Shown here in pieces: positions 4,807 to 21,193 of a DNA stretch of 64,000 nt. Numbering within the stretch: the stretch's first letter is position 1; every line of letters begins with the position of its first letter. Below the pieces are notes generated by a model. It was not told the origin of the DNA and did not search any database. It saw nothing but the letters and a program-made list of their open reading frames with translations. A program made the position numbers and the translations under genes. This DNA comes from Chondrocystis sp. NIES-4102 (GTDB lineage: Bacteria; Cyanobacteriota; Cyanobacteriia; Cyanobacteriales; Xenococcaceae): NCBI GenBank assembly GCA_002368355.1, contig AP018281.1, forward strand, positions 2,232,001-2,296,000. Reading direction: 5' to 3'.

Positions 4807-5288
4807 GTTTAGTTGATTTATTGTCTTTTTTTAAGCTTATTTTTGCATATTTAAGTTGCTTTTTTCTCTTGCAGGTTTTTAAGATAAACAGTTATGATGC
4901 AATGGTTTTTATTTTGGTTTAATTAATTTCGATTTTATTGATAATCCCATCATAAAAAGCGTTCAATATAATCACATATATAAAATTTAGTATTTATAAA
5001 ATTATTTGTTTCTTAATATAAAGGTGATAGTTTTATTGAACACGCATTTAATTTAATCATGCTTGGATAAGTGATATATCAAATTGTTTTATATTTAAAA
5101 ATATATTCTTATCCTGTCAACCAGTAAATTATATTTAATAATAGTTGTTATGTCTATTTTACTTTAATAAAATTAGATATAATATCTCATGATAGAAAAA
5201 TCGAAATGTAAAATACTATTAATAAACTTATTAATTATAATTACTAGATATAAACTGGATAATAGACAATTCTATATTAAACATAATT
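4807..5288. other. AT-rich divergent intergenic region
   Basis: The gap between divergent ggt and the GST gene is very AT-rich and has no credible gene. A TATAAT at 5178-5183, inside the near-palindrome GATATAATATC, could be a -10 element for the GST gene about 105 bases downstream, but I see no good -35. Nothing else is recognisable. Confidence 0.5.
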
Positions 5289-5939
5289 ATGCTCAAACTA
5301 TACCACGACCCATTATCATTTAATTCTCGCCGTGTTTGGGTAACTTTGTTAGAAAAAGAATTAGAGTTTGAATTAATCCATTTAAAATTAGATCAAGGGG
5401 AACAATTAAAGCCAGATTTTCTAGCAATTAATCCTTTCCATCACATCCCAACCTTAGTAGATGATAACTTTAATGTAATTGAATCCCTAGCAATTTTAGA
5501 TTATTTAGATAACAAATATCCTACACCCAAAATGTTACCTGATAACCCTCAAGATTTAGCAATTGTGAGGATGGTACAAGCAACCACAGCTAACGAATTA
5601 GCACCAACGATGATGTCATTAGCTCCAGTCATTTTAGATTTACCCGTAAAAGATGCTGAAAAGATTACTAGGGCAGAAGAAAAAGTGTCAATAGTACTTA
5701 AGTTTTTTGAAAATTTATTAGACGATCGCGATTTTTTTGGCAGCAATACTATTACTTTAGCAGAACCAGTGGCTGGTACAATTATTCCCTGGTTAACAAA
5801 AACTAATATATCTCTCTCTGATTATCCTAAATTAAATGCTTGGTGCAATCGTTTATTGGCTCGTAAAGCTTGGCAACTTACTAAAGAAACTCCCGAAGCG
5901 ATCGCAGATTTTAAAGCTAGATTAGGAGGTAATAGGTAG
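5289..5939 (+). CDS. Glutathione S-transferase family protein
   Basis: Two-domain GST fold: an N-terminal thioredoxin-like domain (about 1-78) beginning MLKLYHDPLSFNSRRV, with the cis-proline motif in HHIPTLVDD and the glutathione-binding ES in VIESLAILDYL, then an all-helical C-terminal domain. The serine in PLSFNSRR is a candidate catalytic Ser, as in theta/beta-like bacterial GSTs. Substrate unknown. At 216 residues it is full length. A run of heptamer repeats begins just after its stop codon. Confidence 0.88.
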   Translation: MLKLYHDPLSFNSRRVWVTLLEKELEFELIHLKLDQGEQLKPDFLAINPFHHIPTLVDDNFNVIESLAILDYLDNKYPTPKMLPDNPQDLAIVRMVQATTANELAPTMMSLAPVILDLPVKDAEKITRAEEKVSIVLKFFENLLDDRDFFGSNTITLAEPVAGTIIPWLTKTNISLSDYPKLNAWCNRLLARKAWQLTKETPEAIADFKARLGGNR

Positions 5940-5950
5940 TGGGGGTTTGG

Positions 5951-6014
5951 GTAGTAGGTAGTAGGTAATAGGTAATAAGTAATAAGTAATAAGTAATCCC
6001 ACAAGGGGACAATG
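5951..6014. repeat. GTAATAA/GTAGTAG heptamer array plus inverted copy of the 601-650 unit
   Basis: About 6.7 heptamers (GTAGTAG twice, GTAATAG, GTAATAA three times, then partial) cover 5951-5997. They run into AGTAATCCCACAAGGGGACA (from 5992), whose 23 bases through 6014 are the exact inverse of the repeat unit at 601-650. The array sits between the GST and helicase genes. Confidence 0.9.
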
Positions 6015-6072
6015 TAGGTAGGAGAAGCTAAGAGCTAAGAAGCTAAAAAGCCAATTGATATAAAATAATAAT

Positions 6073-9000
6073 ATGGTGGAGCGTAATAATTACTTAACCC
6101 CCCAGCAAGAGACAGCAGCCTACGCGCCTTGTAGTGTGGTGATTACGGCAGGGGCAGGCACAGGTAAAACTCATATGTTGGCGGAAAGATATCTGTATTA
6201 TCTAGAGCAAAGAAATTATTCGCCCTTGGAGATAGTTGCAGTTACCTTTACAGAAAAAGCAGCAGCAGAATTGCGATCGCGCATCAGGGCTTTGGTTAGT
6301 GATCATTTACCCCAGCGTTTGGATCTTTTGGCAGAGTTGGAAGCAGCACAAATTAGTACTATCCATGCTTTAGCTGCACGCATTTGTTATGAGCATTTTC
6401 AAATACTTAATTTACCTGCGGATTTTCAGATTTTGGAGGATTTGGAGGGTGCAATCTGGTTAAATGAGTCTCTACGTAAGGCAATAGCGCAATTGTCACC
6501 AGATATATGGCAATCTATTCCTTATTCGCTTCTAAAAGAGATTTTACAGCAGTTATTGGCAGATCCTTACACGGCTAGATTAGCTTTGGCGCAGGATGGT
6601 AAGGATTGGCGTAAGTTAATTTTTAAAGCTCGTATTGAAGTAATTAAAGCACTGATTGATGATCCTATTTGGCAGTCTACTTGGCTTACTTTACAACAGC
6701 ATCAAGGAAAAGCAGGGGATAAATTAGAAGTAATTCGTAACTCTGTAATTGAAGCTATGGAGGATTTGGAATCTGGATTAAATATTGATCAAGCAATCGC
6801 AATTATATGTCAAGTTAAGCTGAATGTAGGTAGTGCTAAAAATTGGCAAAATGACGGGTTGAAAATAGTTAGATCTGCTTTAGCCAGTCTGCGCGATCGC
6901 TTAAAAGAAGTTGTTGGCAAAGGATTACTTAATGGAGAATTAACTACGGTAGATCAAGAGTTGCAATCCTTATTACCTATGATTCGCAAGGCTTATCAGT
7001 CAGTATCAACCTATTTAAGTCGCTTAAAATTACAGAAAAAAGTTTTAACTTTTAGCGATCTGGAAATATACGCCCTGCAAGCTATAAATCAGCCCTCAGT
7101 TCAAAAGTACTATAAAAAAAGATGGCAAATATTTTTAGTAGACGAGTTTCAGGATACTAATGCTACTCAAGGAGAAATATTGAGTGTTTTAACCACAGCA
7201 GCAGAATTAACTATTGTGGGGGATATTAAACAAGCCATTTATGGTTTTCGACGAGCAGATATTGAGGTTTTTGGGCAGTTTCGCGATCGCATTCTCTCTA
7301 ACGGGGGGAAAGAGGTAATTCTGAGTACTAGTTTTCGCACCCATCAAGCTTTAATTAATCTTTTAAATCAAATCTTTGCACCTTTATTAGGGGAAAATAA
7401 ACAGGATTTGGCTGCTGCACGCTCAGAAATAGCAGATGGTAATTATTTAGAAGTAATCACGGTTGGGGAGGGATTAGGGGATGATGAGCAGTCTACATCT
7501 GACAAGCCCAACAGAGACGAAGCTCAACGCACCGAAGCATTTTATTTAGCTCAAAAAATTCAGCAACTGCTAGATAATAAAACTCCTGTGTTGGATAAAC
7601 AAACTAAACAACTTCGTCCTGTGCAACCCAAGGATATTGCCATACTTACCCATACCTGGCAACCTTTAACTGTATACGGTGATGCTTTAGCTGCAAGAGG
7701 AATTCCTTTTATCCCAGGCGGTGGGGGAAATCTATTAGAGACAAGGGAAGCCAAGGACGGGGTTGCATTATTAAGGTTTTTAGCTAATCCTTTGGATGAT
7801 CTGGCTTTGGTTGCAGTTTTGAGAAGTCCCTTTTTTACAATTAGCGATCGCTTATTATATGAATTTCGTTTAGGTTTTACACAAGATCAATCAGATATTT
7901 GTTGGTGGGATATTTTAGTAAATACCCAGTTGTCGGAATTTGAACATCCTGTAAATGTATTAAAACAGCTATTAAAATACAGTCAAGCCGAAACACCTAG
8001 TCGTTTATTACAAATCGGCGATCGCTTAACAGGATATACCGCCGTCATAGCTAATTTAGCAGGTGCTGAACGTAGAATGGCAGATTGGCAAGGGTTTCAA
8101 GGGTTGGTTAAAGATCTACAACAAGAAACCCATGATTTATTTGGGGTGGTGCGTCGTCTTAAAGGGTTGGTTGAGCAACAGGTAGCTATACCACGTCCTT
8201 TATTGGGAAATAATAATGGTGTTGCCTTAATGACTATTTATGCTGCTAAAGGGTTGGAATGGTGTGTAGTAATTGTGGCAGATCTTAGTAAAAAACGTGC
8301 TACATCTAATTCTAAGGTGCTGTTTGATGCAAAGTTAGGCATGGCAATAGAAATTAAACACCCGACTACAGGCGAAACTTTAAAACCATTTTTATATAAT
8401 TGGCTAAAATACGAGCAGGAGCGAAAAGAGCAAGCGGAAGCTATTAGAATTTTATATGTCGCTTTAACTAGAGCCAGAGACTATCTTATTTTAAGTGCTG
8501 GTCAAGCGGATAAAGGGGAACTAACGTACTTACAAAGAGGTTTGATGGCTGCGAATATTGAACCTATAACCATTCCCTATAGTGCAACTAAAGCTATATT
8601 TCCTCACCCTCCAACGCCGATAAAAACCGAAAATTTACCCCCATTACTAATTAATAGCATTGGTTCAGGACTCTGGGAACTACCCGTAACCGCCTTAACA
8701 GACTATGCTCGCTGTCCACAAAGGTTTAAACTACGTTATATAGAAGGACATCCAGGTTTAGGATCAGGATTAGCCTATGGAATGCAACTAGGAATTTTGG
8801 TACATAAAGCATTAGAATACAATATTACTAAAGCTCAGGATTTAATACCATTTATTGAAGGAGAGTGGGAACAAGAAATGATTACCCAAGCTCTCGCCCT
8901 AGCTCGTAAATTCTTTCAATTGCCCATATATCAGCATTTTCGCCAAACCGCCGTCGCCAAAGAACAACAAATCAACTTAAAAATTAACCAGATTACCTTT

Positions 9001-9309
9001 AAAGGAGTTATCGATCTGGTGGGGGATGACTGGGTATTAGATTACAAAAGCGATCGCTCATTACAACCCGAAGATCACCGTTTTCAACTTTGGGTATATG
9101 CTCAAGCAATGGAATATCCCCAAGCCTATATAGCCTATTTACGTCACGACTATCTACATGAATTTAATAGTCAAGATTTAAAGGCGATCGCTCCAGAAGT
9201 TGATTTTACTGCACAACAAATCTATCTCGGTAACTATATTGCTACCCCCCAGATCCAAAAATGCGCTGTTTGCCCTTATATTGCCTTCTGTGACGACGCT
9301 ATGATTTAG
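6073..9309 (+). CDS. UvrD/RecB-family helicase-nuclease with Fe-S nuclease domain (AddA/RecB-like)
   Basis: Superfamily 1A helicase fused to a PD-(D/E)XK nuclease, likely acting on double-strand DNA ends. Walker A GAGTGKT is at 27-33, motif Ia VTFTEKAAAEL follows, Walker B is VDEFQDTN at 356-363, motif III GDIKQAIYGFR, motif V YAAKGLEW and motif VI VALTRARD. The nuclease core is GVIDLV (Asp981) and DYK (Asp990, Lys992). Cys881 together with Cys1064, Cys1067 and Cys1073 (CX2CX5C) match the iron-sulphur staple of AddB and Cas4. No AddB partner gene lies next to it. Its start is preceded by a repeat-rich gap. Confidence 0.92.
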   Translation: MVERNNYLTPQQETAAYAPCSVVITAGAGTGKTHMLAERYLYYLEQRNYSPLEIVAVTFTEKAAAELRSRIRALVSDHLPQRLDLLAELEAAQISTIHALAARICYEHFQILNLPADFQILEDLEGAIWLNESLRKAIAQLSPDIWQSIPYSLLKEILQQLLADPYTARLALAQDGKDWRKLIFKARIEVIKALIDDPIWQSTWLTLQQHQGKAGDKLEVIRNSVIEAMEDLESGLNIDQAIAIICQVKLNVGSAKNWQNDGLKIVRSALASLRDRLKEVVGKGLLNGELTTVDQELQSLLPMIRKAYQSVSTYLSRLKLQKKVLTFSDLEIYALQAINQPSVQKYYKKRWQIFLVDEFQDTNATQGEILSVLTTAAELTIVGDIKQAIYGFRRADIEVFGQFRDRILSNGGKEVILSTSFRTHQALINLLNQIFAPLLGENKQDLAAARSEIADGNYLEVITVGEGLGDDEQSTSDKPNRDEAQRTEAFYLAQKIQQLLDNKTPVLDKQTKQLRPVQPKDIAILTHTWQPLTVYGDALAARGIPFIPGGGGNLLETREAKDGVALLRFLANPLDDLALVAVLRSPFFTISDRLLYEFRLGFTQDQSDICWWDILVNTQLSEFEHPVNVLKQLLKYSQAETPSRLLQIGDRLTGYTAVIANLAGAERRMADWQGFQGLVKDLQQETHDLFGVVRRLKGLVEQQVAIPRPLLGNNNGVALMTIYAAKGLEWCVVIVADLSKKRATSNSKVLFDAKLGMAIEIKHPTTGETLKPFLYNWLKYEQERKEQAEAIRILYVALTRARDYLILSAGQADKGELTYLQRGLMAANIEPITIPYSATKAIFPHPPTPIKTENLPPLLINSIGSGLWELPVTALTDYARCPQRFKLRYIEGHPGLGSGLAYGMQLGILVHKALEYNITKAQDLIPFIEGEWEQEMITQALALARKFFQLPIYQHFRQTAVAKEQQINLKINQITFKGVIDLVGDDWVLDYKSDRSLQPEDHRFQLWVYAQAMEYPQAYIAYLRHDYLHEFNSQDLKAIAPEVDFTAQQIYLGNYIATPQIQKCAVCPYIAFCDDAMI

Positions 9310-9331
9310 ATATATTTAGAATTTATTTTAA

Positions 9332-9700
9332 TTAAGCTATCATGCCAATGTGAGCAGTAACAATCTGCCATCCTGTTGCAGACATAGCCCAAACTCGCGT
9401 ATAACGAAAGTCGCCATTGGTAGGGATGCCCTTGTAGCTACCAGATAACTGCATTCTTACTGAAACTATCGCTACGTTGTCATATACTTGAATATGTTGC
9501 TCAGAAGGTTGTAATTGATTTATTTTAAACGCACCAGATTGATGAGCAGCTAAATCGTCTGCTTTGCTTAATAACTCCCCGTTATGAGTAGTAATAATAA
9601 TTTCGGGGGCTAATAATTGATCTAAAACAGCAACATCAGAAGTTAGCATGGCATCCCTCAGACGCTCTTCTACTTGAATAATCTGGTTTTTAATAGACAT
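9332..9700 (-). CDS. NTF2-like/DUF4440 family protein
   Basis: Small alpha+beta barrel protein of the NTF2-like superfamily (DUF4440/SnoaL-like type). Evidence is the amphipathic N-terminal helix, the motif LLAPEIIITTHNGELLSKAD, and the strand pattern ending RYTRVWAMSATGWQIVTAHIG. I chose the ATG at 9700 (MSIKNQII), because the 19 residues upstream in the same frame look like read-through of AT-rich DNA. The family has varied enzymatic and binding roles; no substrate can be assigned. It is convergent with the helicase gene and divergent from the methyltransferase of the Hcp operon. Confidence 0.8.
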   Translation of the reverse strand: MSIKNQIIQVEERLRDAMLTSDVAVLDQLLAPEIIITTHNGELLSKADDLAAHQSGAFKINQLQPSEQHIQVYDNVAIVSVRMQLSGSYKGIPTNGDFRYTRVWAMSATGWQIVTAHIGMIA

Positions 9701-9827
9701 TGCGACTAATAAATAATAAACAAACGAAAGACTAACATAACAAAACTTTACCCCCAAACATGAGCTACCTCAAAGACGCAACTGTAACTTAATGTCAAAG
9801 TAAAGGTATCGAGTTTGGATATGACTG

Positions 9828-10592
9828 ATGACAACTACTCTTAATTTTACTACCGCACCAGGTCATCAAGTATTAGCAGCAGCAGGGAAGAAGATATTAC
9901 GCCCAGGTGGAAAAGCAGCAACGGAACAATTATTGAGTTGGGCTAATTTTCAGCCAGGAGACACAGTATTAGAATTAGCAGCTAGTTTTGGAGAGAGTGC
10001 TATTGCGATCGCTAAAAGATTTGATGTTCAAGTAGTTGGAATTGAAAAAAATCCCGCCAGCGTAATTAAAGCTAGGGAAAATATTATTAATGCTAGGTTA
10101 GAAGATAGAGTAAAAATTATTGAGGGTGATATCTTCCATCTAGAAATTAGCGACAAATTTGATTATGTTTTAGCTGAAGCAATTCTTACTATGCAGTCGA
10201 ATGTAGCTAAAGCCAAGATCCTCGCAGCCATTAAAAACTGTCTCAAACCTGGGGGTAAATTTCTAGCTCATGAGATGATAGTCCGTAACAATGAATTAGA
10301 AGTCCGTCAAAGTTTATCCCAAAGCATCCGAGTCAACGCTAACCCTTTAACCATTGAGGAATGGATAAAAATATGTTTGGAAGCTGGTTTGACTATACAA
10401 CAGCAGCAAGTAGGAAAGATGGGTTTGCTTAATTTTAATCAAATGTTACAAGATGAAGGATTATTAGGCACAATCAAAATTGCTTGGAATGTTGCAGTTA
10501 ATCCTAATTTACGCCAAAGAATCTTACAAATGCGTCGTAATTTTCAACAGCAAGCAAATAATCTTGGTTACATGGTTTTTATTAGTAATTAA
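9828..10592 (+). CDS. Class I SAM-dependent methyltransferase, first gene of Hcp unit
   Basis: Rossmann-type methyltransferase. Motif I is VLELAASFGESAIAIAKRF (about residues 45-63), followed by the acidic ribose-binding strand VVGIEKN and the post-motif GDIFHLE; the C-terminal half is helical. Substrate unknown. It is the first of three plus-strand genes, 47 bases before the cupin-globin gene and leading to hcp, so a link to nitrosative stress is inferred from position. An ATG at 9821 opens a seven-codon overlapping frame that ends at 9844; the ATG at 9828 fits the protein. Confidence 0.85.
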   Translation: MTTTLNFTTAPGHQVLAAAGKKILRPGGKAATEQLLSWANFQPGDTVLELAASFGESAIAIAKRFDVQVVGIEKNPASVIKARENIINARLEDRVKIIEGDIFHLEISDKFDYVLAEAILTMQSNVAKAKILAAIKNCLKPGGKFLAHEMIVRNNELEVRQSLSQSIRVNANPLTIEEWIKICLEAGLTIQQQQVGKMGLLNFNQMLQDEGLLGTIKIAWNVAVNPNLRQRILQMRRNFQQQANNLGYMVFISN

Positions 10593-10639
10593 TACGCGCA
10601 ATGCCCCCAAGGGATAAATAAATAAGCAAGGAAATAATT

Positions 10640-11416
10640 ATGACTCTCACGCCCACAACAAATTCTTTCATCGCTAATTTACATGATTTAATTGAATATC
10701 CTAGCAGTGGGGTATTTAGTAAGGTTTTACTCAAAGATAATAATACTCAATACCTTCTTTTTTGTTTAGCTGCTGGTGCGGAAATTAAAGAACATACATC
10801 TACTCGCAATGCTGTTATTACCGTAGTCGATGGCAAGGGTAATCTTAATTTAGATGGGGAAAAGATTACTTTATTACCAGGTGTATTGGTATTTATGCCA
10901 GCTAATGCGCCTCATGCTTTGCAAACCTCCGAAAAACTGGCATTTATTCTCACTTTATCCGAGCATTTACCCAAAAAACAGCAAATTAGCCACCAAAGCG
11001 TCGAAATAGTTAAATCTACTGCCCCTGTACTTAAGCAGCACGGTAAAACAATTACGACTCGAATGTACGAGATTATGTTTAATCAGTATCCAGAAGTTAA
11101 AACACAGTTCGATCAGTCTGCGCAGGCTAATGGTAGTCAACCAGCTAAACTTGCTAATGCTGTTTATAGTTACGCTACTCATATTGACGATCTTGAAGCT
11201 TTAAAAGCAATGGTTGATAAAATTGCCCATCGTCATGTTGATAGTCACGTGCTACCACAACAATATCCCATAGTCGGGGAATGTTTATTACAAGCGATTA
11301 AGGATGTGTTACAAGATGCTGCCACACCAGAAGTCATGCAGGCTTGGACAGAGGCTTATCAATTATTAGCTGAAGTTTTTATCAACCGAGAACAACAAAT
11401 TTACCAGGAAAATTAG
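10640..11416 (+). CDS. Cupin-globin fusion protein (flavohaemoglobin-type globin domain)
   Basis: Two domains in one chain. Residues 1-115 form a small cupin with likely metal ligands His52 and His92. Residues about 117-258 align closely with the globin domain of flavohaemoglobin Hmp: B10 Tyr143 in RMYEIMF, distal Gln167 in GSQPAKL, and proximal His199 in KIAHRH, followed by QYPIVGE and VFINRE. The FAD/NAD reductase part of Hmp is absent, so electrons must come from another protein. It starts 47 bases after the methyltransferase (AAGGA before the ATG) and ends 11 bases before hcp. Nitric oxide binding or dioxygenation is inferred from the intact haem pocket and the neighbour. Confidence 0.88.
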   Translation: MTLTPTTNSFIANLHDLIEYPSSGVFSKVLLKDNNTQYLLFCLAAGAEIKEHTSTRNAVITVVDGKGNLNLDGEKITLLPGVLVFMPANAPHALQTSEKLAFILTLSEHLPKKQQISHQSVEIVKSTAPVLKQHGKTITTRMYEIMFNQYPEVKTQFDQSAQANGSQPAKLANAVYSYATHIDDLEALKAMVDKIAHRHVDSHVLPQQYPIVGECLLQAIKDVLQDAATPEVMQAWTEAYQLLAEVFINREQQIYQEN

Positions 11417-11427
11417 GGGATAAAATT

Positions 11428-13077
11428 ATGTTTTGCGAACAATGCGAACAAACTGCTAGCGGTAATGGGTGTCATCAATGGGGTGCGTGTGGCAAAAGTC
11501 CTCAAGTAAATGCGGTACAAGATTTATTGATTTATTGTTTACGTGGACTTGCACCTGTAGTGCTTGAAGCTAAAAAGTTGGGGATCGAGACGCTAGAAGC
11601 AGATAGATTTACTTGTGAGTCGATGTTTGCAACTATGACTAATGTAAATTTCGATCAGAAACGATTTACAGTTTATATCAAAGGCGCGATCGCTCTACGG
11701 GAAAATCTTAAAGCCCAAATTCAATCGTTAGCAGCTATTAATTGGTCGGATATTTCTAATTATCAACCAGATTATCATGACAGTTTGGTGGAACAGGGAC
11801 AAAATTATAATTTAGAATTAATTGCTCAGTCTGGGGCAAATATCGATATTTTTTCTTTAAAACTTACCGCGCTTTATGGGGTTAAGGGTGCTGCTTCTTA
11901 TACTTTCCATGCTTATGAATTGGGACAAGAAGACGAAGCGGTATATGAATTTGTACAACAGGTATTAGCTAGTATCGATCGCCAGGATCTATCTTTAGAT
12001 GCTTGGGTTAATTTGAATTTGGAAATTGGTAAAATTAACCTGCGGGCAATGGAATTGATTGATCTAGGACATACTAGCACTTATGGTCATCCTGTACCCA
12101 CTCCTGTACCTTTAAATCATCTACCAGGTAAAGCAATTTTAGTGTCGGGACACGATATTAAACAGTTAGCAGCTATCCTTAAACAGACTTTAGATCAGGA
12201 TATTACTGTCTACACCCACGGAGAATTGTTACCAGCCCACGGGTATCCGCAATTAAAAGCACAATACCCCCACTTTTACGGACATTTTGGCACTGCTTGG
12301 CAAAATCAAACTAAAGACTTTGCTAAATTCCCTGGCGCAATTGTTATTACTACTAACTGTCTGATGCCTCCCCACGATCATTATGAAGCTAAACTATTTA
12401 CTTTAGGCCCAGTGGGATATGCTGGTATTAATTATCTGCCTGCAAAAGAAGATGGCACTATAGATTTTACGCCCGTAATCCAAAAAGCTCAAGAATTACC
12501 AGGATTTAGCGAACCATCACCCTATAAAGAGGTTACTACAGGTTTTGCTCATAACGCGGTTTTAACAGTTGCAGATCAAATAATTACTGCGGTTAAACAG
12601 GGTAAGATCCGTCATTTCTTTCTTGTCGGTGGTTGTGATGGGGCGAAACCAGACCGTAACTATTACGCCGAATTTGTCGATCAAGTTCCCGATGATTGCA
12701 TCGTTTTAACCCTTGCTTGTGGTAAATTCCGCTTTTTCGACAAGGAAATGGGCAATATTGCAGGTATTCCCCGTTTATTAGATGTGGGACAATGTAATGA
12801 TGCCTATTCAGCTATTAAAATTGCGATCGCTCTAGCTAATGCCTTTGAAGTAGGAGTTAATGATATTCCCCTGTCTATGATTCTTTCCTGGTATGAACAA
12901 AAAGCAGTGGCTGTCTTACTCACTCTACTTTATTTAGGAATTCAAGATATTCGTCTTGGCCCAACTTTACCAGCTTTTCTTTCAGCCAATGTTTTAAAAT
13001 TGTTATCTGAGAAATATAATCTACAAGCTATTACCACTGCCGATCAAGATTTAGCTGCTTGTTTAGCAAGTAAGTAA
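11428..13077 (+). CDS. hcp: Hybrid cluster protein Hcp (NO/hydroxylamine reductase)
   Basis: Hcp carries a cubane Fe-S cluster and a hybrid Fe-S-O cluster; in Escherichia coli it reduces nitric oxide to nitrous oxide and can reduce hydroxylamine. The N-terminal cluster ligands are Cys3, Cys6, Cys15 and Cys21 (CX2CX8CX5C), closer to the short spacing of the anaerobe type than to that of E. coli. Later motifs such as VGGCDGA, LACGKFRF and DVGQCNDAYSA supply hybrid-cluster ligands. Length 549 is full. It sits 11 bases after the cupin-globin gene, so co-transcription is likely. No hcr reductase gene is adjacent. Confidence 0.95.
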   Translation: MFCEQCEQTASGNGCHQWGACGKSPQVNAVQDLLIYCLRGLAPVVLEAKKLGIETLEADRFTCESMFATMTNVNFDQKRFTVYIKGAIALRENLKAQIQSLAAINWSDISNYQPDYHDSLVEQGQNYNLELIAQSGANIDIFSLKLTALYGVKGAASYTFHAYELGQEDEAVYEFVQQVLASIDRQDLSLDAWVNLNLEIGKINLRAMELIDLGHTSTYGHPVPTPVPLNHLPGKAILVSGHDIKQLAAILKQTLDQDITVYTHGELLPAHGYPQLKAQYPHFYGHFGTAWQNQTKDFAKFPGAIVITTNCLMPPHDHYEAKLFTLGPVGYAGINYLPAKEDGTIDFTPVIQKAQELPGFSEPSPYKEVTTGFAHNAVLTVADQIITAVKQGKIRHFFLVGGCDGAKPDRNYYAEFVDQVPDDCIVLTLACGKFRFFDKEMGNIAGIPRLLDVGQCNDAYSAIKIAIALANAFEVGVNDIPLSMILSWYEQKAVAVLLTLLYLGIQDIRLGPTLPAFLSANVLKLLSEKYNLQAITTADQDLAACLASK

Positions 13078-13142
13078 TGTATCAGCTTTTAGCTTTATGC
13101 AGTCGTAGATCATAGACCCCGAAACATTTAAGTGATGACTTT

Positions 13143-13184
13143 TAGCTATTAGCTATTAGCTGTTGGTTATTAGCTTTTAGCTTC
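13143..13184. repeat. TAGCTAT-type heptamer array
   Basis: Six consecutive heptamers (TAGCTAT twice, then TAGCTGT, TGGTTAT, TAGCTTT, TAGCTTC) lie in the gap between the convergent hcp and radical SAM genes. A CTCC-rich run follows at about 13225-13245. They belong to the same class of seven-base repeats seen elsewhere in the window. Confidence 0.85.
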
Positions 13185-13317
13185 TATTTTTTAATTGCTA
13201 AATGATCGATAATTATTGACTAGACTCCTCCTCCCTACTCCCTATTTGCTTTATCTTATCCTTTAGAGCTACTAACTATCTACTACTAAAAGAACCGATA
13301 ATCCTTGCCAAGCTATA

Positions 13318-13917
13318 TTAATTCTCTAATGTTTTCCCAAACCCAGTAATAATTCTACTACCATCTTTGAGGATATTAATTTCTATTTGCTCCCTCGCCC
13401 AATCAAGTTTATCTTGTAGTTTAGGATTAAAAATATGAACATTCTGCTCACATGATGAAACTATAGATTTATGTTCATTGACTGCTAAAGATTTTACAAA
13501 TACACTATCAATTAAAATGTCTAATTGTGCCAATAATTCTTGACTGCAAGCAGGAGCATATTCCGATTGTAATCTTTCTAAACTAAAGCCTGTAAAAGAC
13601 ATAACATTTAAACCTGCTGCCTTGACTTTTTTAGCTACATCTGTAAGTGCTGGTGCTTGCCAGAAAGGTTCACCCCCAGAAAAAGTTACCCCAGTATTGT
13701 TAGGATTATTTAAGATCTTTTCAACTAAATGTTCAACAGATATCAATTGATTGATTTCAAAAGACCAAGAGTCTGAATTAAAACTACCCTGCAACCAAAC
13801 TACCGCCCTAGAACCTGGGCCATTTACTTGGGATTGATCAACATAACCCATAATATTAAGATGTCCTGGGGGAATTTCTAATAACTTAAGATAGGCATCA
13901 CTATTGGTTTGCTTCAT
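13318..13917 (-). CDS. NrdG/PflA-like radical SAM protein lacking its CX3CX2C motif
   Basis: The frame resembles the short radical SAM activases (NrdG-like, single 4Fe-4S). NIMGYVDQSQVNGPGSRAVVW leads to WLQG at 41-44, and SGGEP is kept at 80-84. In this family WLQG is followed by CxxxCxxC and then FNPDSW. Here WLQG is followed directly by S45 and FNSDSW, so all three cluster cysteines are missing, as if about 21 bases were deleted in frame and the last Cys codon changed to AGT. The frame is otherwise open over 199 codons. It may be a non-catalytic relic or an early pseudogene. It is convergent with hcp. Confidence 0.82.
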   Translation of the reverse strand: MKQTNSDAYLKLLEIPPGHLNIMGYVDQSQVNGPGSRAVVWLQGSFNSDSWSFEINQLISVEHLVEKILNNPNNTGVTFSGGEPFWQAPALTDVAKKVKAAGLNVMSFTGFSLERLQSEYAPACSQELLAQLDILIDSVFVKSLAVNEHKSIVSSCEQNVHIFNPKLQDKLDWAREQIEINILKDGSRIITGFGKTLEN

Positions 13918-14001
13918 CTCATTATTTTATGTTTAGTCTTGCTTAAATAAATAGTAACTCTTTAAGTTAATTGTTTTATTTATTAAGGCAAAAATCCATT
14001 A

Positions 14002-14814
14002 TTAATTAACAAAATTATTATTTTCCAACCATCTTTGAATATCTGCTAAAACTTGATCGGGTATCTCCCAAGGAAAGAGATGGGCAACTTGGGGATAGTT
14101 GATATATTGGCAGTTTTTTAAATTTTGAGCAGTTTTTTGACTGGCGTAGGCGATAATATGGCGATCGCTTTCTCCCGATAACATTAGACTGGGAATATCT
14201 ATCTGATGTAGGTCTTCTAAGCGGTTATATCCCTGTCCAATTGCCGTAAATAAAGCTCTATTCGCTGCCTTCGAGGTTTGAAAATAAGCTGCTACTCCTT
14301 CTTTAGCTAGATAGTTATAAGACTCTGGAGTATGATTGCTAATTAAATAACGAAATAGCGATCGCTTGCCAAAAGTCTCGATATTCCATTCCCAACCTGG
14401 TTTAACATAGTTGACTATACCACCGACACCAGTAAATAATAAGTCTTGCCAAGTTGGTTGAGGATGACTACTTAATGGATGGGCTGCTGTGGCAATTAAA
14501 ATCATCCCCTTAAACCTCTGGGGCATTGCTAAGGCTAATTCCATAGCCATAATTCCCCCCAAAGACCAACCTAATAGCAAACAGTTATCTATCTTATTTT
14601 GATCTAGTAGTTGTGTTAAGTCTTGTAAATGTTCTTTGATTAAGAATTCTTTACTATAACGACTCTTGCCATAACCACGCAAATCAGGGGTAATAGTTTG
14701 ATATTGACGGGATAGATAATTGGTAAATACAGACATAGTAGCAGCCGACCCTGGATGACCATGTAGACAGAGTATTGGTAATCCTTTTCCTTTTATTTCT
14801 GTATTTAATTGCAT
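14002..14814 (-). CDS. Alpha/beta hydrolase
   Basis: Alpha/beta hydrolase fold enzyme of 270 residues. The oxyanion region is LHGHPGS (17-23), the nucleophile elbow GWSLGG holds Ser84, the acid is probably the Asp in SGESDRH and the histidine is that in QVAHLFPWE, so the catalytic triad looks complete. The pattern resembles esterase, lactonase or BioH-type hydrolases; the substrate cannot be given. It lies about 200 bases downstream of ssb on the same strand. Confidence 0.87.
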   Translation of the reverse strand: MQLNTEIKGKGLPILCLHGHPGSAATMSVFTNYLSRQYQTITPDLRGYGKSRYSKEFLIKEHLQDLTQLLDQNKIDNCLLLGWSLGGIMAMELALAMPQRFKGMILIATAAHPLSSHPQPTWQDLLFTGVGGIVNYVKPGWEWNIETFGKRSLFRYLISNHTPESYNYLAKEGVAAYFQTSKAANRALFTAIGQGYNRLEDLHQIDIPSLMLSGESDRHIIAYASQKTAQNLKNCQYINYPQVAHLFPWEIPDQVLADIQRWLENNNFVN

Positions 14815-14957
14815 AATCTTTTAATTTAACAGTTTATAATTAGCGTAAACATAAAGAAAGTATTAAATTATTAAGAAAATTCCTAAAAAACTTTATATTA
14901 ATTAATATAAATTAACTCAGCTAGCAATAAATATAAAAGCTGCAACTTATAAATAAC

Positions 14958-14986
14958 GCACCCAAGACTGTATATAGAATGGGTGC
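14958..14986 (-). terminator. Possible terminator after ssb
   Basis: A 7-bp stem GCACCCA/TGGGTGC with a 15-base loop lies 25 bases past the ssb stop on the minus strand. The tract that follows is only moderately T-rich (GTTATTTATAA), so termination would be weak. Confidence 0.4.
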
Positions 14987-15010
14987 TTAATATTTTTTGG
15001 GGTAAAGAAA

Positions 15011-15484
15011 TTAAAAGGGTATTTCGTCCCACTCATCGCTACCACCACTAGAAACTGGTTCAGCCACTAATTCCAGTTTAGGAGAAGATTTAGGGGTAGA
15101 TTTAGTAGTAACAGCTTCTTGGAAGGAATTACTAGTAGCCTGATAGTTATTAGTACTTGTTTGGGCAAAACTGGAAGAAGCAACATTACCAAGGGGATAA
15201 ATACGAGAGGCGATCAACTTAGCGCGTTTTTCCTTATACCCTTCTTGAAGATTAATAACGTTCATCGATAAACGCCCTTCAATAATAACGTTATCCCCTT
15301 GCTTATAAGTATTCTTAGTTTCTTCGGCTAAATTGCCCCATACTTCCACCTGCACTTTACCAGGTTCTTCGCCTTCCTTACCAGACTCAAACTCAACCAT
15401 CATTGAGGTGACATTTAAATTATCTTGAGTAGAACGTAATTCGGGATCAGTAGTTATTTGTGCCATTAAAACACAGCTATTCAT
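15011..15484 (-). CDS. ssb: Single-stranded DNA-binding protein
   Basis: SSB-type OB fold in residues 1 to about 105, beginning MNSCVLMAQITTDPELRST, then a linker rich in Ser, Thr and Gln and the conserved acidic tail ending DEWDEIPF that docks repair and replication proteins. The length, 157, is normal. N-terminal residues MNSCVLMA differ from E. coli-type SSB and fit the cyanobacterial form. It is 85 bases downstream of the NDP-sugar pyrophosphorylase on the same strand. Confidence 0.9.
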   Translation of the reverse strand: MNSCVLMAQITTDPELRSTQDNLNVTSMMVEFESGKEGEEPGKVQVEVWGNLAEETKNTYKQGDNVIIEGRLSMNVINLQEGYKEKRAKLIASRIYPLGNVASSSFAQTSTNNYQATSNSFQEAVTTKSTPKSSPKLELVAEPVSSGGSDEWDEIPF

Positions 15485-15569
15485 GGGTTTACTACTCCTA
15501 AAGTTAAAATTACTGGGAACTGAACAATTGTACTATTTATCTTAATCAATGGGGAACTTGGTGATACCA

Positions 15570-18086
15570 TTAAATTTGCTCACTATCAACGAAATTTTGA
15601 ATTAAATGACGATATTTTGCCAATTGCTCATCAACCCAACTGCGATCGCTACTATTGGCATAAATATGGACGATAGGTTCACCAGCATCAGGTAGAATTA
15701 AAACCCAATTATCATTTTGTGGGTTAACTATTTTAACACCATCAATTAATTCTAAGTTTTCTGTCCCATGAATTTCCACTAAATAGCGCATCAAAGCACC
15801 CTTAACTTTCCAAGGACAACGCAGTGAGGCAAACTTATGACAAACATTAGGTAAATCATTACGTAGTTCTGCCAGCGATCGCTCTTGAATAGTGAGCATT
15901 TCAATTAATTTGGCAATACTAAACATGGCATCAAAACCAGGGTGTAATTGCGGGAAAATAAACCCCATATCGCTATTGCCTCCTAAAACTACATTAGGAT
16001 TATTTAAAGAAGCCTCCATTAAAGCTGTAGGATTAACCTTTGTCCGCACAACATGACCATCATGACGACGGGCGATCTCTTCGACTGCACTAGAAGTATG
16101 TACAGGTACGACAACGGTGCTACGAGGATTAGCCGTAAAAATTATATTTACCATCAAGGCGGTTAGAGCTTCGCCCCGAATTGGTAAACCAGCCTCATCT
16201 ACTAAAATAAATTGTTCGCCGTTAGCAGATACCTGTACGCCAAAATTTGCCTTCAAAGCTTCTACTACTTGACCTAACTGATCAAGTAAAATTTCTTTTT
16301 GGGTAGCAGAAATTGCAATTTCTTTGAGACTGGCATTTAACACCACAGCATCACAACCAAATTTAGCTAAAAGCTGGGGTAAAATTGCTCCAGATACAGC
16401 ATACACATAATCAATAACAATTTTAGAGCTACTATTGCGAACTGCTGCGATATTAATATACCTTTCAAAGGTACGACTATAAATATCCAAAACTCCACTA
16501 GGATAACTAACTTTGCCAATTTCCTGTACAGCTACCCGCCTTAGATCCTCTTTAAAATAAGTTCCCTCAATTTTCTTTTCTTGGGATTTCGAGATACTAA
16601 TTCCTTGTCTATCAAAAAATTCAATCAATAAATAATCAGGGCGATTAGGTTCTAAACGAATATGAATCCCTCCTGAAACATCCATTAAATTACTCATCAT
16701 CATCGTGCGAGAAATAGGAATAGCCGTAGCCTCCAAATTCTGCACATTAATTCCAGCAGACATTAAACCTGCAATAATCGCCCGACTAATCATACGGGAA
16801 ACACTGCGCTGATCACGAGAGACAATAACCGTCGAACCCAATTTTAAAGTTGAACCGTAGGAAGCCCCCAACTTCACCACAAATTCAGGAGTCAAATCAA
16901 TATTAGCTAGCCCTGTAACTCCCCTTTGCCCAAAAAGATTACGTTGTGCAGTATTGCCCCAAATCAGATTAATATTTAAAATTGCCCCAGATTCAATTCT
17001 TTTACTCGGCCACACCCTTACTCCTGGGGAAATGAGAGCTTCTTCTCCCACAATTGATAAACTTCCTACTACCGATCCTTCCAAAGCTTGCGCTCGACGA
17101 TCCATTCTAGTTCCACGGGAAATCACACAAGCACGTAAATGTGCTTCATCGCCAATAGTTGCGCCATTCCAAATAATTGGACGTTTAAGATTAGCATCTG
17201 CCCCAATGGTTACATTGTCACCAATCACCGTTCCAGATTCAATGCTTACCCTTGCACCAATACGACAGTTATCACCAATTATGGCAGGGGTTTCAATTAC
17301 AGCACTAGCATCAATATAAGTATTATGACCAACCCATACCCCAGGTGATCTTTCCTCATAGGGAAAATCCAACTTAACTTTTTTAGCTAAACCGTCATAC
17401 TGCGCCTCTCGATAGGCTTCCAAATGCCCCACATCACACCAATAACCTTCTGCAATGTAGCCATAGATTGGTTCTCCAGATTCCAAAAGTAAGGGAAATA
17501 AATCTTTAGAAAAATCAACTTCCTCGTTTTCTGGCAGATAATCTAAAATCTCAGGTTCAAGAATATAAGTACCTGTATTAACGGTATCGGAAAAAATTTC
17601 ACTCAAAGAAGGCTTTTCTAAAAAACGATTAATTCTGCCATCCTTATCAGTAATTACCACCCCAAATTCCACAGGGTTAGGTACACGAGTCAAAATTAAT
17701 GTAGCTTGAGATTTTTTTTCACGATGAAAAGCGATCGCAGCTTGTAAATCGAAATCTGTAATGGCATCGCCACTAATGGTAATGAATGTATCGTCTAGCC
17801 ATTGTTGAATATTTTTTACACAACCTGCTGTTCCCAAGGGTTGTTCTTCTTCAACTGCATAGGTCATTTGTACTCCAAAATCACTGCCATCTTGAAAATA
17901 ATCTCGCATCACATCGGGCAGATAATAAAGAGTTGCAATGATCTCTGTAATATTATGACGTTTTAATAAATTAATGATGTGTTCAGCTATGGGACGATTT
18001 AACACTGGTACCATCGGTTTTGGCAGATCACAAGTTAAAGGGCGCAATCTTGTCCCTGAACCCCCAGCCATTAGCACTGCACGCAT
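15570..18086 (-). CDS. NDP-sugar pyrophosphorylase / phosphomannomutase-like fusion
   Basis: Three parts in 838 residues. Residues 1 to about 235 are a nucleotidyltransferase with GGSGTRLRP (8-16) and the sugar-site motif EKP; about 250-370 is a left-handed beta-helix with hexapeptide repeats; the rest resembles phosphoglucomutase/phosphomannomutase. The family is usually called mannose-1-phosphate guanylyltransferase and would make GDP-mannose or a similar activated sugar for glycans. In the mutase part I find neither the phosphoserine loop (TASHNP) nor the DGDxDR metal loop; [15 protein letters not shown] and LVDEAGLPI occupy the places. That domain may be non-catalytic, possibly as a family trait. 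Confidence 0.85.
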
Positions 18087-18357
18087 TCTACCTTCTTGCT
18101 CCTTATTTTATTTTAGTTGGCTTGTAGTTATTTTTGTCTTTGGTGACGCTTTGTAGTTAACCAAAACCTAGATTTTCCTACACCTTCAATTAGATTCCCA
18201 AATATATATATGGGGTGATGTTAACTGAGTATTTTAGAACACTGTTTTAATAAGTAGATTGGGAAAAGTTGAATTTAGGATTAAAAGGAAGAAAAATTTA
18301 CAATTGTTAGAATATAGCTGTTATCCATTTATTACTTAGAGTTAGGGTTGAATTAAG

Positions 18358-18552
18358 ATGTCAGATTTAATTACTTTTATCTTGTTATTAGTTTATGGTG
18401 GCGGAATTTGGAAGTTTTTATCTGGCTATAGTCGTACTAATTTTGATCCCAGTTTGTCTAGAAAAGCGGTTCTAGCTTTATTGTGGCCTGTTTTCTTGGC
18501 AACTAATAAATCCTATCGGCGTAATTTTCGTAAAGCTTTAAAAGGAAGATAA
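18358..18552 (+). CDS. Small conserved-type membrane protein
   Basis: A 64-residue protein with one clear hydrophobic segment (about residues 4-20, ITFILLLVYGGGIWKFL), a polar middle (SGYSRTNFDPSL), a second weakly hydrophobic stretch (AVLALLWPVFLAT) and a basic tail ending RRNFRKALKGR. The layout, with Trp and Pro in the second segment, looks like a real small cyanobacterial membrane protein and not a random frame. Function unknown. It lies alone between the divergent sugar enzyme and the convergent leuS. Confidence 0.65.
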   Translation: MSDLITFILLLVYGGGIWKFLSGYSRTNFDPSLSRKAVLALLWPVFLATNKSYRRNFRKALKGR

Positions 18553-18637
18553 AGGCAAGCAGGGAGTGGCGTAGTGAAGTAGCGAGATTGGCTAATATTT
18601 TACTAACCGCACCACTTCAATACATCCCAACACCTAA

Positions 18638-21193
18638 TTATTTTGCCACCACAAAATTAACCAATTTATTGGGTACTACTATCACTTTTTTAATTTCCTT
18701 ACCTTCCAAATAACGTTGAGCCACCTCAGACTCCACTGCATACTTTTCCAACGCTGCTTTATCTAAATTAGCAGGGACTTGAATAGTACCACGAGTCTTA
18801 CCCATAACCTGCACCACCAAAGTAATCTCATCTACCGTTAATGCTGAAGGATCTACTTCTCGCCATTGCTGATGATGAACAGATGTACTATTACCCAAGT
18901 GACTCCATAATTCTTCTGTAAGATGAGGAGCAAAAGGAGCAAGTAATAAGACTAAAGTTTCAATACCTTCTTGATATACAGGGGAATTGACACAATTACT
19001 GTCTTTGAGGGCATTACTTAATTTCATCAATTCCGAAACCGCAGTATTAAACTGATATTCCCCCGATAAATCCTCTGAAATCTCCTTAATTGCTATATGA
19101 ATGGCTCGGCGGAGGTCTTTTTCTGCTTTAGTAAGTTCTTGATTAGATTGAGTAACTTGAGAGCGATCGTAATTTGTCACCAAAGACCAAACTCGATTTA
19201 AAAAGCGGAATTGTCCTTCCACATCAGCATCATCCCATTCCAAATCTTTTTCTGGTGGGGCTTTAAAAAGAATAAACATCCTAGCTGTATCGACACCATA
19301 TTTACCCAAGCCTGCTTCTAAGCTCACACCATTGTATTTAGACTTAGACATTTTCTCAAAAAATACCTCTAGTTTGTCTCCTGTTTCAGGATCTCGAGGA
19401 TCTTCAGGATTAATTTGGTCTGGGGGGATATATTTATTATTTTTGGGATTTTTATAAGTTAATCCCTGTACCATTCCTTGAGTTAACAAGCGTTTAAACG
19501 GCTCATCAAAATTAAGTAAGCCTCTATCTCGCAATACTTTAGTAAAGAAACGGGAGTAAAGCAGATGTAAGATAGCGTGTTCAATCCCACCGACATATTG
19601 ATCCACAGCTAGCCAATCATTAACCTGATCTTGCTCAAAAGCAGTATCAGTATTATTAGCATCGCTATAGCGTAAAAAATACCAAGAAGAATCAATAAAA
19701 GTGTCCATAGTATCAGTTTCCCGTTTTGCAGGCTTACCACATTTAGGACAATCAACATTAATCCAAGCTGACAACTGAGCTAAAGGAGAACCACCACGCC
19801 CCGATAATTCAACAGATTCGGGCAATTTAACAGGTAAATCACTATCTGGTACAGGTACAGTTCCACAATCAGCACAATGAATTACAGGTATAGGACAACC
19901 CCAATATCGCTGACGGGAAATTAACCAATCTCGTAAACGATACTGCACTCTAGCTTTACCATAACCCTGTTGTTCGGCATATTCAATTATTTGAGTTTTA
20001 CCTGCATCGGCGGATAAACCATCAAATTGCCCCGAATTTACCAGAATTCCTGATTCAGTATAGGCTGCGGATAGCGGTTGATCAGCACTTTGTCCTTCTG
20101 GCACAATTACAGTTTTGATCGGCAGTTGTTTTTCCGTGGCAAATTTAAAATCCCTCGTATCGTGGGCTGGCACACCCATTACTGCCCCTGTACCATATTC
20201 ATAAAGAACATAGTCGGCAATCAAAATAGGTACTTGTGTTCCATTAAAAGGATTAATTACCATTCCCCCAGTGGGAATACCTCGTTTGGGCTTATCTTCT
20301 GCTGTTCTTTCAATTTCGCTTTGCCCTTTAATTTCCTCAATAAACCCTTCCACTGCTGCTTTTTGCTCAGGGGTAGTTACCTTAGCGGTTAAAGGATGTT
20401 CAGGGGCGAGAACTACATAAGTCACACCATATACAGTATCGGGACGAGTGGTAAATACGGCGACCTTCTCATCCATCCCCACAATGGGAAATTCTAAATA
20501 AGCCCCAATGGATTTACCTATCCAGTTAGCCTGCATAGTTTTGACTCTTTCTGGCCAACCATCTAACTGTTGTAGATCTTGGAGAAGTTTTTCTGCATAA
20601 TCAGTAATCTTAAAAAACCATTGTCTAAGCAGCTTACGTTCAACAATCGCTCCAGATCTCCAACTACGTCCTTCACTATCTACCTGTTCGTTAGCAAGTA
20701 CGGTTTGATCAATAGGATCCCAGTTAACCGCAGCTTCTTTTTGATAAGCCAACCCCGCATCTAAAAATTGTAAAAATAGCCACTGTGTCCATTTATAATA
20801 GTCGGGAGAACAAGTCGTTACCTCTCTATCCCAGTCAATAGACAGTCCTAACTGTTTGAGTTGCTCCCGCATCTGGGCAATATTTTGATATGTCCATTGA
20901 GCAGGAGGAATACCTCGATCTATGGCTGCGTTTTCGGCAGGTAATCCAAAAGCATCCCAGCCCATTGGATGTAATACTCGATACCCCTGCATTCTTTTTA
21001 AACGAGCAATAACATCGGTAATTACATAGTTACGGACATGACCCATATGTAAGCTCCCCGAAGGATAGGGAAACATGGAGAGGGCATAAAATTTTGGCTG
21101 ATCTTTAGAGTTGGGAGTTTTATCGATCCCAGATTCTTGCCATTGTTTTTGCCATTTTTGTTCTATGTCTGCTGCGTTATACCTTGACTCCAC
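18638..21193 (-). CDS. leuS: Leucyl-tRNA synthetase
   Basis: Class I aminoacyl-tRNA synthetase that charges tRNA-Leu. The HIGH motif is HMGH at residues 49-52 and KMSKS is present in [13 protein letters not shown]. The CP1 editing domain with TRPDT and [12 protein letters not shown] lies between them; a zinc-type CADC/CPKC pair is also present. Length 851 is full. The start is GTG at 21193, with AGGAG 11 bases upstream. It is divergent from the DUF gene at 21376. Confidence 0.97.

Follow-up and report, generated by a model that had tools for sequence, protein, structure and literature searches.

A cupin–globin fusion gene between methyltransferase and hcp genes in Chondrocystis sp. NIES-4102, and a conserved palindrome suggestive of Crp/Fnr-family control

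The window analyzed here, a stretch of 64,000 nucleotides of Chondrocystis sp. NIES-4102 (contig AP018281.1, positions 2,232,001 to 2,296,000; genome of 5.0 Mb in 7 contigs), contains three co-directional genes encoding a class I S-adenosylmethionine (SAM)-dependent methyltransferase, a protein in which a small cupin is fused to a flavohaemoglobin-type globin, and the hybrid cluster protein Hcp. The conserved core of this arrangement is the methyltransferase together with the cupin, with Hcp being one among several alternative partners, and a palindrome recurs at nearly fixed distance upstream of the methyltransferase. We think it probable, though by no means certain, that the three genes form an FNR/HcpR-type operon for nitric oxide (NO) or low oxygen, in which the fusion would remove NO with electrons supplied from outside and Hcp would do so without oxygen. 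The features on which this reading is built are the following, with the evidence for each in brackets.

9760..9773, no strand assigned: palindrome ATGAGCTACCTCAA (WTGAGnnnnCTCAW), putative Crp/Fnr-family site, 54 bases 5' of the methyltransferase start (motif comparison)
9828..10592, plus strand: class I SAM-dependent methyltransferase, 254 aa (open reading frame (ORF) list, Pfam and NCBIfam domain searches)
10640..11416, plus strand: cupin–globin fusion, 258 aa (ORF, domain searches, relatives, alignment)
10640..10975, plus strand: cupin half, residues 1-112, with E51, H52 and H92 conserved (Pfam, alignment)
10985..11413, plus strand: flavohaemoglobin-type globin half, residues 116-258, without reductase domain (NCBIfam, solved relatives, alignment)
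11428..13077, plus strand: Hcp, 549 aa (Pfam, NCBIfam)

The fusion protein and its two neighbors

A first-pass annotation, made from the sequence, had described three plus-strand genes separated by 47 and 11 bases, and the ORF coordinates confirm both gaps. Pfam places Cupin_2 at residues 40-96 of the fusion ORF (39.4 bits, cut-off 27.2) and Globin at residues 141-245 (63.8 bits, cut-off 22), and the join between the two halves is short. Against the NCBIfam flavohaemoprotein model, which spans 399 positions, the globin part matches positions 2-144 with 195.8 bits (cut-off 432); because the match covers only these positions and falls below the cut-off, the reductase part is absent, and the globin half ends where the reductase domain would start. 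An alignment of 40 globins, of which 34 come from cyanobacterial loci and 6 from plasmid records, shows no variation at Y143, F157, Q167, L171, H199, Y209, W236 or E251 across the 39-40 rows covering these positions. The initial description of the middle gene as a cupin joined to an Hmp-like globin with Tyr143, Gln167 and His199 but no reductase domain is thus correct. We take the flavohaemoglobin-type pocket positions concerned to be TyrB10, GlnE7 and HisF8, and, judged by these residues, the globin half keeps the full flavohaemoglobin-type haem pocket including the Tyr/Glu relay (Y209, E251). Its nearest solved sequences are thermoglobin (7dih), flavohaemoglobins, VHb (1vhb) and Cgb (2wy4).

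The nearest solved sequences of the cupin half are 3rns and 1yhf. Classical metal cupins carry a set of three histidines and one glutamate. Across 78 aligned cupins H52 and H92 never vary and E51 is present in 99% of rows, whereas the remaining two metal positions are neither His nor Glu, so that the classical set is not found in these 78 sequences; a two-histidine metal site is possible. A structure predicted for the fusion (mean pLDDT 45.6, from an alignment of 7 sequences) was too poor and was left unused, as was that of the methyltransferase (mean pLDDT 43.3, 5 sequences).

The third gene had already been named hcp, and this identity holds: its product scores 528 bits against Prismane (Pfam) and 766.2 bits against the NCBIfam equivalog NF003658 (cut-off 367) over residues 1-547. 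The first gene is placed by Pfam among the class I methyltransferases; it passes the TehB cut-off narrowly (20.9 vs 20.4), with other methyltransferase families scoring higher, and identity as TehB was rejected on the NCBIfam TehB equivalog (25.9 bits, cut-off 218). None of the best 25 of 49 NCBIfam families reaches its cut-off, so no substrate family emerges from these, and the solved relatives of the methyltransferase are varied.

Spread of the fusion and the methyltransferase–cupin core

Full-length fusions occupy 18 places in 16 of 80 related genomes, the source genome included. Four further fused loci (L032, L033, L035 and L036) lie in named records, namely a Richelia metagenome-assembled genome (MAG), Cyanothece BG0011, a Rivularia MAG and a Cyanomargarita MAG, which brings the total to 22; split and single-domain relatives are also present. 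A search of the source genome with the fusion, at E 0.001 or better, recovers the fusion itself and nothing else. A draw of 146 genomes across the class yielded 34 with a match at 1e-20, the window's own being the only full-length one; the rest are either small cupins or, in four genomes of family f48, stand-alone globins with 55-56% identity. The window's family probably also includes Stanieria cyanosphaera PCC 7437 and Hyella patelloides. Horizontal spread of the fusion is plausible, because Stanieria (G013) carries one fused copy on plasmid NC_019765.1, typed as conjugative by PLSDB, and another on its chromosome. The plasmid copy of the module (L151) is accompanied by HPP and a Crp/Fnr regulator.

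Both halves are present as separate ORFs at two loci, L056 and L058; those of L058 overlap, and its globin is broken into two pieces. The fused state changes twice on the globin tree and three times on the cupin tree, rows of fewer than 80 residues having been kept out (two of 80 cupins and one of 41 globins). A single change is seen in no bootstrap tree, with many forks left open, and the trees would fit a single fusion followed by splits or losses as well as a few fusion events.

Neighbor, site, alignment and tree counts omit L001-L030, which are the same places as later fetches, and L031 and L034, which lie on the same contigs as G015 and G019; an Embleya record that was retrieved does not enter the analysis either. 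At the fused loci the methyltransferase stands directly upstream in at least 16 of 22 and hcp lies at most 3 kb downstream in at least 8 of 22 (6 of these within 120 bp), while a Crp/Fnr regulator is near in at least 12, HPP in 4 and cytochrome b561 in 3; all of these are lower bounds, with L037 and L045 ending within 1 kb of the gene. At the cupin-only loci the methyltransferase is directly upstream in 39 of 55, and the genes nearby comprise the regulator (21 loci), a 164-aa family (14), YwiC (11), a 155-aa family (7), NorB (6), alternative oxidase (AOX, 4), Hcp (3), HPP (2) and GlbN (2). One of the 39, L127, encodes methyltransferase and cupin as a single ORF of 383 aa (6149-7300), with an exact palindrome upstream and the regulator divergent. 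Since hcp lies within 3 kb downstream at only 8 of the 22 fused loci and the methyltransferase–cupin pair recurs without the globin, what is conserved is not the set of three genes. The methyltransferase, which the first-pass annotation had treated as an add-on of the operon, is the most constant partner of the cupin.

A truncated GlbN-type haemoglobin follows the cupin after 62 bp in L069 (8564-8926) and precedes it by 29 bp in L128 (6531-6905). These haemoglobins belong to another globin family and stand in place of the globin that is fused elsewhere; because globins of two families thus stand beside the same cupin, a functional pairing of cupin and globin is suggested. Two small protein families without Pfam or NCBIfam match also accompany the cupin. 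The 164-aa family (L077 8407-8901 and relatives) often lies between the cupin, which it directly follows, and NorB, AOX or YwiC, with a palindrome of its own in some loci, and the other, of some 155 aa, is represented by L034 5528-5992 and relatives.

The upstream palindrome, its putative regulator and the flanks

The WTGAGnnnnCTCAW palindrome was noticed while testing the published HcpR site. At least 8 of 10 positions of TTGAGnnnnCTCAA are matched in 36 of 38 upstream regions, all from kin loci and the same set on which the motif was chosen, as compared with a mean of 6.1 and a maximum of 12 in the first-order Markov simulations that served as controls for the upstream motif counts. When all 1,024 inverted pentamers were scored on these regions with the same spacer at 9 of 10 positions, ATGAG was found in 28 of 38 and TTGAG in 23 of 38, the next pentamer reaching 12. 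A fairer test is provided by the class draw, from which 19 methyltransferase loci were retrieved later; 13 of them carry the exact WTGAGnnnnCTCAW: 9 of 10 with the regulator adjacent and 4 of 9 without. The palindrome is also found 5' of the stand-alone globin in L054 and 5' of the 164-aa gene in L067, L068, L071 and L082, this gene being followed by NorB in L068, by AOX in L071 and by YwiC in L082. The source genome has a single further exact WTGAGSTASCTCAW, located within a long ORF; single-mismatch sites are no evidence, because with one mismatch allowed 25 sites are found vs 12 for the backward control.

Site and regulator go together across genomes. The exact site is present at 23 of 41 loci from genomes with the regulator and at 1 of 13 from genomes without, that one being an incomplete genome; this comparison omits L032, L033, L035 and L036, which carry no genome handle, L088 and L089, which have no cupin or globin anchor, and L092, which has no upstream sequence. 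The regulator itself is present in 33 of 43 genomes with the cupin vs 6 of 37 others, in 16 of the 16 genomes with the fusion and, outside the window's family, in 14 of 22 cupin genomes vs 3 of 31 others. The presence lists behind these figures count the cupins of G011 and G021, which are ended by a contig end or a stop, and the weak regulator match of G007, and exclude the distant cupins of G034 and G062. The source genome encodes its Crp/Fnr regulator 1.8 Mb from the three genes. From this comparison of sequences, the palindrome at 9760-9773 is likely to be the site of a Crp/Fnr-family regulator. The best match to the published HcpR site, TTGACnnnnGTCAA, before the methyltransferase has 2 mismatches and spans the start codon, and was dropped.

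Two minus-strand genes, both assigned by domain searches, flank the three-gene set:

9332-9700, minus strand: DUF4440 protein
13318-13917, minus strand: NrdG-like activase (anaerobic ribonucleotide reductase type), convergent with hcp

A relative of the NrdG-like gene lies 3.7 kb past hcp in locus L041. Directly 3' of hcp, at 13080-13183, a 16-base repeat resembling TATTAGCTTTTAGCTT is present in three imperfect copies. An Rfam search of window positions 5000-19000 gave no match.

Interpretation and comparison with known systems

In the reading that we favor, the three genes would be transcribed as one operon responding to NO or nitrite, probably at low oxygen, with a Crp/Fnr-family regulator probably acting at the 9760-9773 palindrome. 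The fusion would bind haem in its flavohaemoglobin-type globin and would most likely convert NO and O2 to nitrate, or else trap NO, with electrons coming from a separate reductase, and Hcp would reduce NO once oxygen is gone. The cupin may be the older, methyltransferase-linked partner that was later joined to the globin; elsewhere this globin is a separate gene, or a truncated haemoglobin takes its place in the operon. Control by NO or low oxygen is supported because the palindrome is conserved, cupin and regulator co-occur, and NorB, AOX, HPP, GlbN and Hcp are recurrent neighbors. The nitrosative-stress operon proposed in the first-pass annotation therefore gains support as to its setting from the palindrome, the regulator and the neighbors, and not mainly from Hcp.

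Several results weigh against this reading. Hcp, proposed initially as the operon partner, adjoins a part of the fused loci, yet 5 of the 16 fusion genomes have no Hcp match. This, with hcp near only a part of the fused loci, partly fulfils a refuting condition named in the first-pass annotation itself, that of fusion homologues widespread without Hcp. Across the 80 genomes the co-occurrence of fusion and Hcp is weak (11 of 16 vs 23 of 64, p 0.024) and the regulator is associated neither with Hcp (p 0.65) nor with NorB (p 0.22), and kinship inflates the p-values of all such association tests. No good site lies upstream of the source genome's regulator gene (best 7 of 10), and the published HcpR site TTGACnnnnGTCAA is not enriched in the window, with 33 matches at two mismatches or fewer vs 28.7 expected. 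The label 'HcpR-type' rests on the arrangement, since the regulator protein reaches the cut-off of no NCBIfam regulator model. Few genomes with the fusion have NorB (1 of 16 vs 11 of 64, p 0.44), no NorB match being present in 15 of the 16; this would fit a replacement of NorB in these genomes but proves nothing.

A bolder version of the NO reading, which we hold to be rather unlikely, is that methyltransferase and cupin form an undescribed cyanobacterial NO-defense core that uses any globin at hand, be it a globin of the flavohaemoglobin type, whether joined to the cupin or encoded by its own gene, or a truncated GlbN in the operon. The fusion would then be an enzyme with two centres, and its cupin site might either process what the haem site produces or feed the haem site. 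Alternatively, the operon may answer low oxygen and not NO, with a VHb-like globin that binds or delivers O2 or shields oxygen-sensitive enzymes and with Hcp as an anaerobic redox protein. In its favor, control by low oxygen is a frequent role of FNR-like sites, the globin half has VHb among its nearest solved relatives, and the locus is adjoined by the NrdG-like gene (anaerobic ribonucleotide reductase type); set against this are the recurrent neighbors NorB, Hcp and HPP, and the NO induction of two further small cupins whose operons contain hcp or norB, as given in the available parts of the reports cited below, and we regard the low-oxygen explanation as unlikely.

That methyltransferase and cupin alone are the working unit, a TehB-like detoxification or repair of a small molecule or metalloid toxic under nitrosative stress, with the globin a passenger or accessory, is suggested by the recurrence of the pair without globin, its single-ORF form in L127 and the narrow pass of the Pfam TehB cut-off. 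It is distinctly unlikely in view of the higher-scoring methyltransferase families, the low NCBIfam TehB score, the invariant globin pocket and the two globin families found beside the cupin. A sensor role is common among globins that are joined to other domains, and the short join would suit a protein in which the haem state of the globin alters the cupin, which in turn signals to the methyltransferase or the regulator; we consider this improbable given that the globin is of the flavohaemoglobin type with its Tyr/Glu relay kept and that cupin and globin occur as separate genes too. The first-pass annotation had itself raised a mis-join, for the case that close relatives carry the two parts as separate proteins. 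Separate or broken forms do exist in L056 and L058, but the 22 fused loci with invariant functional residues, one of them in a named plasmid record, refute a mis-join, and the chance that the fusion is a mis-joined or decaying gene is negligible.

No description of a cupin–globin architecture was found in the literature searched, which mostly did not extend to subscription journals. The closest regulatory precedent for our preferred NO or low-oxygen operon is the cyanobacterial HcpR regulon of Rodionov et al. 2005, in which, according to the available text (PMC1274295), HcpR is divergent from hcp or norB and recognizes TTGACnnnnGTCAA. The two systems each have a regulator of the Crp/Fnr family, hcp and norB, and a palindrome with a 4-base spacer, while the published site is TTGAC-N4-GTCAA and the present one TTGAG-N4-CTCAA, and that text mentions neither 'cupin' nor 'methyltransferase'. 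An slr0449 mutant of Synechocystis has an altered metabolite profile, in the excerpt at hand (PMC5318462), and norB and glbN of Limnospira are adjacent and radiation-induced, as stated in the accessible portion of that report (PMC8400943). The conserved site and the short gene list amount to a testable regulon with two protein families, the methyltransferase and the cupin.

Flavohaemoglobin Hmp/FHb has the same globin type and haem-pocket residues, as reflected in the match to model positions 2-144, but the fusion is without the FAD/NAD reductase domain and has an N-terminal cupin instead. The single-domain FHb-type globins that are its nearest solved relatives (thermoglobin, VHb and Cgb) are likewise reductase-less, yet have no cupin, whereas the present globin is joined to one at 22 loci and stands apart at others. 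In the available part of Gardner's review (PMC3820574) single-domain globins are described as able to serve as NO dioxygenases when separate reductases supply them, and alternative oxidase as preventing poisoning by NO. Alphaproteobacterial plasmids offer a further parallel, in which a small DUF1971 protein has as its neighbors NorB or Hmp and a globin that is either single-domain or truncated, although as separate genes; examples are L153 3430-5428 and L154 4160-8483, where DUF1971 and a globin (group III truncated, or single-domain) adjoin hmpA or NorB. DUF1971 presumably has a cupin-like fold, and its assignment to the same family as the present cupin is unsupported (hhalign probability 4.8).

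Small cupins among NO or nitrite genes are also found in distant bacteria. In the passages available from each source, a Desulfovibrio desulfuricans cupin gene beside hcp (Ddes_1828-1829) is NO-induced with log2 values of 4.4 and 3.17 (PMC5701242), a Sphingopyxis cupin-norB-nnrS2 operon is induced by NO (PMC7713065), and NsrT, the cupin of a Thermus nitrite-respiration cluster, is a proposed iron binder (PMC5748679). These proteins, for which the same passages report no globin fusion or methyltransferase, resemble the Chondrocystis cupin in their gene context, and with small cupins thus recurring in NO operons, explaining the present one could explain a wider pattern.

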